A stretch of 64,000 nucleotides of DNA from Haloterrigena alkaliphila. GTDB taxonomy: Archaea > Halobacteriota > Halobacteria > Halobacteriales > Natrialbaceae. Within the stretch, counting starts at the first letter, position 1, and every line of letters starts with the position of its first letter. Of the stretch, positions 37,602 through 38,075 are shown piece after piece. Below the pieces are notes generated by a model, which worked only from the letters and a program-made list of their open reading frames with translations, made no database searches and was not told where the DNA came from. Location: positions 372,001-436,000 of the forward strand of contig NZ_CP071462.1 in the NCBI RefSeq assembly GCF_017352155.2, given 5' to 3'. A program made the translations under genes and the position numbers.

Positions 37602-38075
37602 ATGGACCGCCAGACCGTCTCGAGCGACACCGAGTGGGAACCGAAGGTGGGCTACTCGCGGGCCGTCCGCGCGGGCTCGCACGTTCACGTCGCCGGGACG
37701 ACCGCGACCGACGAGGACGGGAGCGTCGTCGCGCCCGGAGATCCCTACCGGCAGACGGAGCGCGCCCTCGAGATCGTCGCGGACGCATTGGCGGAAGCCG
37801 GAGCGAACCTCGAGGACGTCGTCCGAACCCGCATCTATACTGTCGACCGTAACGGTTCGTGGAGTCGCCGAGCAATCCGGCGAATCCACCGCGCTGACTT
37901 ACAGTCGACAGTATACGTCACCGACATCGACGACTGGGAGGCGATCGGACGCGCACGCGGCGAGGTCTTCGGCGAGATCCGTCCCGCAGCCAGCATGGTC
38001 GAGGTCCAGCGGCTGATCGACCCCGACCACTGCGTCGAGATCGAAGCGGTGGCGATCACCGACGACGGTCGGTGA
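37602..38075 (+). CDS. RidA/YjgF-family protein interrupted in frame by a 76-bp palindromic element
   Basis: A 157-residue protein. Residues 1-79 match the RidA start (GYSRAVRAGSHVHVAGTTAT, ALEIVADALAEAGANLEDVVRTRIY) and the last part resumes VTDIDDWEAIGRARGEVFGE and ends VEIEAVAITDDGR. Between RIY and VTD lie 26 extra residues rich in Arg/Ser, encoded by the mobile element at 37838-37913. Without them the protein would have the standard length of about 131. The usual catalytic Arg (P-R-S-x-V) is Ala here (RPAASMVEV), so this is a non-deaminase subgroup or the enzyme is altered. Whether the insertion allows folding is unknown. Confidence 0.82.
   Translation: MDRQTVSSDTEWEPKVGYSRAVRAGSHVHVAGTTATDEDGSVVAPGDPYRQTERALEIVADALAEAGANLEDVVRTRIYTVDRNGSWSRRAIRRIHRADLQSTVYVTDIDDWEAIGRARGEVFGEIRPAASMVEVQRLIDPDHCVEIEAVAITDDGR
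37838..37913 (+). mobile_element. 76-bp palindromic MITE-like element with TA target duplication
   Basis: The ends TACTGTCGAC...GTCGACAGTA are perfect inverted repeats; including four more bases the arms agree at 16 of 17 positions when the flanking TA is counted. An inner stem pairs 37859-37870 with 37878-37889 (one mismatch) around a 7-nt loop. TA occurs on both sides (37836-37837 and 37914-37915), the target duplication of IS630/mariner-type transposition. Removing the 76 bp plus one TA restores a normal RidA reading frame exactly (78 bp = 26 codons). It encodes no transposase, so it needed one in trans. Confidence 0.8.

Follow-up and report, generated by a model that had tools for sequence, protein, structure and literature searches.

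How did a gene for a conserved protein in Haloterrigena alkaliphila come to hold a palindrome, and what has this done to the protein? The gene (37602-38075, + strand) lies in the window, by which we mean the whole 64,000-nucleotide stretch analysed, and is an uninterrupted frame of 157 codons assigned to the RidA/YjgF family (Ribonuc_L-PSP) from the ORF itself, from a PF01042 match (99 bits) that is divided by the insert, and from flanks that are 84-87% identical to the ortholog in Haloterrigena salina. A sequence-only reading of the locus had proposed that a small mobile element inserted here in frame, and that removal of the element plus one TA would leave a normal RidA sequence. Excision of these 78 bp does give back ...VVRTRIYVTDIDDWEAIG..., and the empty site, which that reading had suggested seeking in close relatives, is found exactly and with a single TA in H. 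salina (L073, genome G003): its sequence is ...cggatcTAcgtcaccgac..., and that of the window ...cgcatcTA[76 bp]TAcgtcaccgac.... The same residues in many distant orthologs would have spoken against that reading; the 26 extra codons occur in none of 34 RidA relatives (genome contigs from haloarchaea and bacteria).

Insertion would have been at a TA dinucleotide within a tyrosine codon (TAC), in the Haloterrigena lineage after its split from H. salina, and in a phase and orientation that happen to be stop-free. Because 76 bp plus a 2-bp duplication make 78 bp, the frame is kept and exactly 26 codons are gained, as had been claimed. The stronger claim, that the element became coding sequence, holds to the extent of an open in-frame reading: the 157-aa protein is predicted, with IYTVDR and STVYVTDIDDWEAIGR as its junction-spanning peptides.

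An AlphaFold model of the predicted protein (30 sequences; pLDDT 78.8) keeps the RidA fold intact, and only residues 85-107, which are most of the insert, fall below pLDDT 50, giving the insert the appearance of a disordered loop. The best PDB match is Rv2704 (3i7t; TM 0.95 by target length), so that both domain and structure place the host gene in the RidA/YjgF family. In the model, insert residues T80-V81 continue the beta-strand as VTD would have done; TVD, with which the insert opens, may thus replace the VTD lost from the strand's end, with the remainder tolerated as a loop. Tolerance of the insert is, on this model, plausible. The alternative is that the insertion destroyed the gene, the frame being open only through recency and the predicted protein being non-functional – a pseudogene in waiting. 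It draws on a near-invariant His that is Arg in the window's gene, on a second RidA-like gene in the same genome, on the interruption of a core strand by the insert, and on the avoidance of genes by most copies of the element. Against it, there is neither stop nor frameshift, the predicted fold is kept, and the substitutions accumulated since the split (polarised with two outgroups) are alike in the two lineages: six nonsynonymous and seven synonymous for the window, six and six for H. salina. These few sites give no sign of relaxation in the window lineage. We consider gene destruction a serious prospect, somewhat short of an even chance; it concerns the consequence of the insertion and is compatible with a MITE origin.

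The element itself occupies 37838-37913 and lies on the - strand, its canonical orientation being set by an asymmetric motif of the family (GTCAGYG) that follows the left terminal repeat; on that strand the copy scores 86.7 bits with a covariance model. A TA stands on each side (37836-37837, the target duplication or original target, and 37914-37915) where the empty site has one. The terminal inverted repeats, TACTGTCGACCGTAA (37838-37852) and TTACAGTCGACAGTA (37899-37913), are complementary at 14 of 15 positions, and with the TA included the outer match is perfect over 12 bp, GTCGACAGTATA (37904-37915) being the exact reverse complement of TATACTGTCGAC (37836-37847). Further in come one mismatch, a GTAA/TTAC pairing, an asymmetric internal loop and then an imperfect inner stem (37860-37888; TGGAgTCGCCG / CGGCGAaTCCA), whose arms, TGGA.TCGCCG (37860-37870) and CGGCGA.TCCA (37878-37888), enclose a 7-nt loop (37871-37877); among related copies this stem is kept as GGATTCGCCG/CGGCGAATCC. 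Folded as DNA, the 76 bp reach -24.1 kcal/mol compared to -12.9 +/- 2.2 for shuffled sequences (z -5; none of 200 as good). The palindrome, its termini, its TA flanks and its second stem are all as the sequence-only reading described them. The segment is thus a short imperfect palindrome with terminal inverted repeats and without a transposase, which is to say a MITE. That the palindrome is more than chance follows from homologous copies elsewhere, which have the same ends and target duplications.

A further prediction concerned the genome that holds the window (G000; 4.27 Mb, 99.8% complete), where other copies and an IS630 transposon with the same ends were expected. Neither expectation was borne out closely: BLAST of this genome found no copy other than the window's, inverted pairs of TACTGTCGAC were absent elsewhere in it, the covariance model added three much weaker matches (52, 37 and 36 bits), and a DDE_3 (IS630) transposase was detected neither here nor in the close relatives G001 and G003. 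With only this genome to go by, the question of mobility would stay undecided, and proof comes therefore from relatives.

Among 125 Natrialbaceae genomes, BLAST-level matches (the weaker ones partial) are present in 21 and covariance-model matches in 86. Plasmid records hold more copies, in Haloarcula, Halomicrobium, Halobellus, Haloplanus and Haloferax, so that the family extends from most Natrialbaceae to Haloarculaceae and Haloferacaceae: three haloarchaeal families in all. Copies measure 74-79 bp, with an additional 108-bp class that has the same ends and a different core. The consensus of the window's subfamily is TACTGTCGGCTGTAAGTCAGTG..GGATTCGCCG....CGGCGAATCC...CAnAACnGTTACAGCCGACAGTA; other subfamilies start TACTGYCGGACAGAAGTCA, TACTGCCGGACGTAAGTCGTG or TACTACCGGCTGTAAGTCATTC. 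Patterns made from the exact ends occur hundreds of times and the reversed control pattern essentially never; for Natribaculum breve (G048) the figures are 188 and 0. Those 188 matches (95 forward, 93 reverse) amount to some 95 copies, of which dozens are identical. When 63 copies were extracted from this and two further genomes (G049, G122), 36 were found to be identical, being two strings that represent one element in its two orientations, which implies a recent burst. On these sequence comparisons the element is a member of a real mobile family, with copies at unrelated loci in many genomes. No convincing match to it was found in viral contigs or phage records, and Rfam holds no family for it. 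RNAalifold returned no structure from a first, too loose alignment; a cleaner alignment with a given structure was used for the family thereafter.

The target duplications bear on how the copies arrived. Both flanks read TNA in 129 of 167 distinct copies, and in 119 of these the middle base agrees between the two sides, where base frequencies alone would give 42.6 (P about 2e-45). Another 13, the window copy among them, have TA on both flanks. As a rule the family thus duplicates 3 bp, TNA, with TA as the minority form; in N. breve identical copies are flanked by either, showing that one system makes both. IS630 elements normally duplicate TA, and the TA flanks had been read as an IS630/mariner-like signature. 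For the window copy this stands (TA on both sides, one TA at the empty site); across the family TNA predominates.

Which transposase would make such duplications? The IS630 loci examined first were of top-scoring types that end in TAGTAACC... or TAGTGTC..., unlike the MITE, and for this reason the search at first seemed negative; pairs of exact terminal repeats at transposon distance were also absent, for subfamily A across the 125 Natrialbaceae genomes and likewise from G098. The matching type was found on plasmids of N. breve. It is a transposon of the IS630 family and measures about 1070 bp, its bounds set by comparison of copies, with the ends TACTGTCAGCC (also given as TACTGTCAGCCAAAAAT) and TACTCACGGACATAAGT. 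Its two overlapping ORFs both pass the NF033545 model (transpos_IS630) and between them carry HTH and DDE_3 domains, the latter in one ORF; of ten copies delimited, eight have TNA duplications and one has TA. The end TACTCACGGACATAAGT is identical at 14 of 17 positions to an end of the MITE in the same genome, TACTGCCGGACGTAAGT, a score reached by 33 of the 3058 plasmid 17-mers that start with TACT, the 33 including the MITE ends themselves. The likeness runs further inwards (..GTACGTAAAGA in the transposon, ..GTCGTGAAAGA in the MITE). This transposon, the one with the best-documented ends, goes with another subfamily than the window's, to whose end it matches at 12 of 17; an IS630 end from G078, TACTGTAGGCCGGAAGT, with TA flanks, matches the end of the window's subfamily at 14 of 17. 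Agreement between transposon and MITE ends is thus partial throughout (12-14 of 17). From the anatomy of the elements we name IS630 with good confidence as the probable mobilising family: 37838-37913 would be a non-autonomous MITE moved in trans by DDE_3 transposases, the window copy presumably by an IS630 relative now absent from its genome. Natrialbaceae have further IS630 types: those with TAGTGTCTAGGG and TAGGGATCAGCAG as ends (G048, G103; L190, L205, L192) likewise have TNA duplications, and the type ending in TAGTAACC has CTA/TAG at its flanks. To judge by these flanks, what is duplicated seems to vary inside IS630.

A TNA target and a 3-bp duplication are also the properties of the IS1031 group of IS5 (PMC12016507), and a transposase of this group could on both counts have moved the family. 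Transposase families beyond IS630 were covered as samples. Members of the IS1031 group differ in being autonomous IS5 transposons, and in the 30 loci from four genomes where IS5-type transposases were considered as partner, the ends do not match: no DDE_Tnp_1 element has TACTG ends. In contrast, an IS630 with TACTG ends and TNA or TA duplications exists in N. breve, the genome with the largest burst, which makes IS1031-type mobilisation improbable. The idea that the insert is no mobile element, being instead a feature of a RidA lineage or a hairpin made in place by duplication and inversion, has in its favour the want of another close copy in its own genome and is contradicted by the empty site, by the absence of the segment from all the RidA relatives, and by homologues of the element that sit, with clean duplications of 2-3 bp, at unrelated loci of other species; we give it next to no weight. 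The best explanation, with a probability of roughly 0.88, is an IS630-mobilised MITE that inserted in frame into a RidA-family gene, much as the sequence-only reading had it: the empty site, the related loci, and a relative's IS630 with matching ends and duplications all agree with it.

Most copies are elsewhere than in genes. About 93-95% are intergenic: a first set of 107 contained 101 copies between genes, five that ran over the end of a gene and a single one, that of the window, within a gene. When both sets are joined, 12 of 163 sites fall in predicted genes after healing, compared to 106 expected for random TNA; genes were called with a simple codon-usage caller trained on the window, and some of the 12 are artefacts of that caller. 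Besides RidA, two genuine-looking in-frame insertions were found, both in N. breve, in an ATP-grasp gene (L383) and in a hypothetical gene (L359), bringing the number to three. These two unrelated proteins read the same 27-aa segment, ILPDVSRERFSPSRGGENLHTVTSDSI, one element having entered both genes in an identical frame. Another N. breve copy (L351) breaks the frame of a gene that, from its sequence, we take to be radical-SAM-like. Open frames running over copies were also considered as evidence of many fusions, and were rejected when codon scoring showed them to be mostly spurious high-GC frames. Where the TNA duplication is concerned, it coincides with the predicted stop codon of a neighbour in 29 of 118 copies (G098, G048, G103 and others), compared to 15.9 expected from nearby noncoding TNA sites (z 4.2). 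Where an element inserts at TGA or TAA, the stop is made anew and no harm is done.

Small palindromes that are translated as part of protein genes are known from Rickettsia, where palindromic elements (RPE) of about 150 bp were mostly in frame within ORFs in one reported set (PMC10969869). The haloarchaeal elements resemble these in being stop-free, in-frame insertions in conserved protein genes (RidA, ATP-grasp, the hypothetical gene), although here the evidence is an open frame and a predicted protein, and differ in that most copies are intergenic, with the 12 of 163 just given and three in-frame insertions only. It might be argued that the family is nevertheless an archaeal counterpart of RPE, repeatedly donating peptide segments, with some fusions kept as functional protein: a 78-bp or 108-bp element together with its 3-bp duplication amounts to whole codons (one of 78 bp always adds 27), and at least one phase is stop-free (1-2 of six in three 78-bp consensus elements, four in the window element, three in the 108-bp class). 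We think this unlikely. There are nonetheless three clean archaeal cases of a mobile palindrome turned into predicted in-frame protein sequence, the RidA case being backed by an empty site. With them the question raised by RPE, whether inserts of this sort are neutral, tolerated or of use, can be put to the test in culturable organisms.

Nearest among haloarchaea are the SMRs and MITEs of Haloquadratum walsbyi, multicopy repeats of 80-110 bp with prominent inverted repeats (PMC3119063). The SMRs have no target duplication and no transposon match, and SMR-A targets PATEs and IS605-type elements (PMC3119063); the present family, in contrast, makes 2-3-bp duplications and matches IS630, and so is not of the SMR kind. 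With IS630-family MITEs it shares IS630-like terminal inverted repeats, lack of coding capacity and TA duplication, and differs in that both it and its partner transposon have mostly the 3-bp TNA, with TA in the minority. The kind is therefore already known, both as IS630-type MITEs and as coding palindromes in Rickettsia; the family is apparently undescribed, no description being found in the open-access literature searched. Haloarchaea thereby gain a large, recently active MITE family, tied to a partner IS630 whose TNA duplication is unusual.

Some copies have features of their own. Those of 106-108 bp in G098 (L258, L260, L287 and others) share the terminal repeats and have an unrelated palindromic core, which leaves only about 20 terminal bases in common. 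In six genomes of genus g15 (L117, L118, L120, L126, L129, L132) a variant of the element occupies one conserved site, its copies there being orthologous and each preceded by the words ATCCCTGTCCTGGCG, which also end a nearby tRNA-Ser gene; with this gene about 150-260 bp upstream at the two loci checked, the site looks, by sequence, like an attachment-site remnant. Finally, one copy in the window's own genome (G000:C1:3078356-3078434, L135) lies upstream of a cysteine-synthase-like gene and stops about 30 nt short of its ATG, and copies in two other genomes (L170, L175) are in the same place. Compensatory changes among the three affect both stems, for example TTTG/CAAA to TTTA/TAAA. The right end of the copy supplies a TATA-like AGTATA, and it may thus have been co-opted as a promoter or regulatory hairpin.
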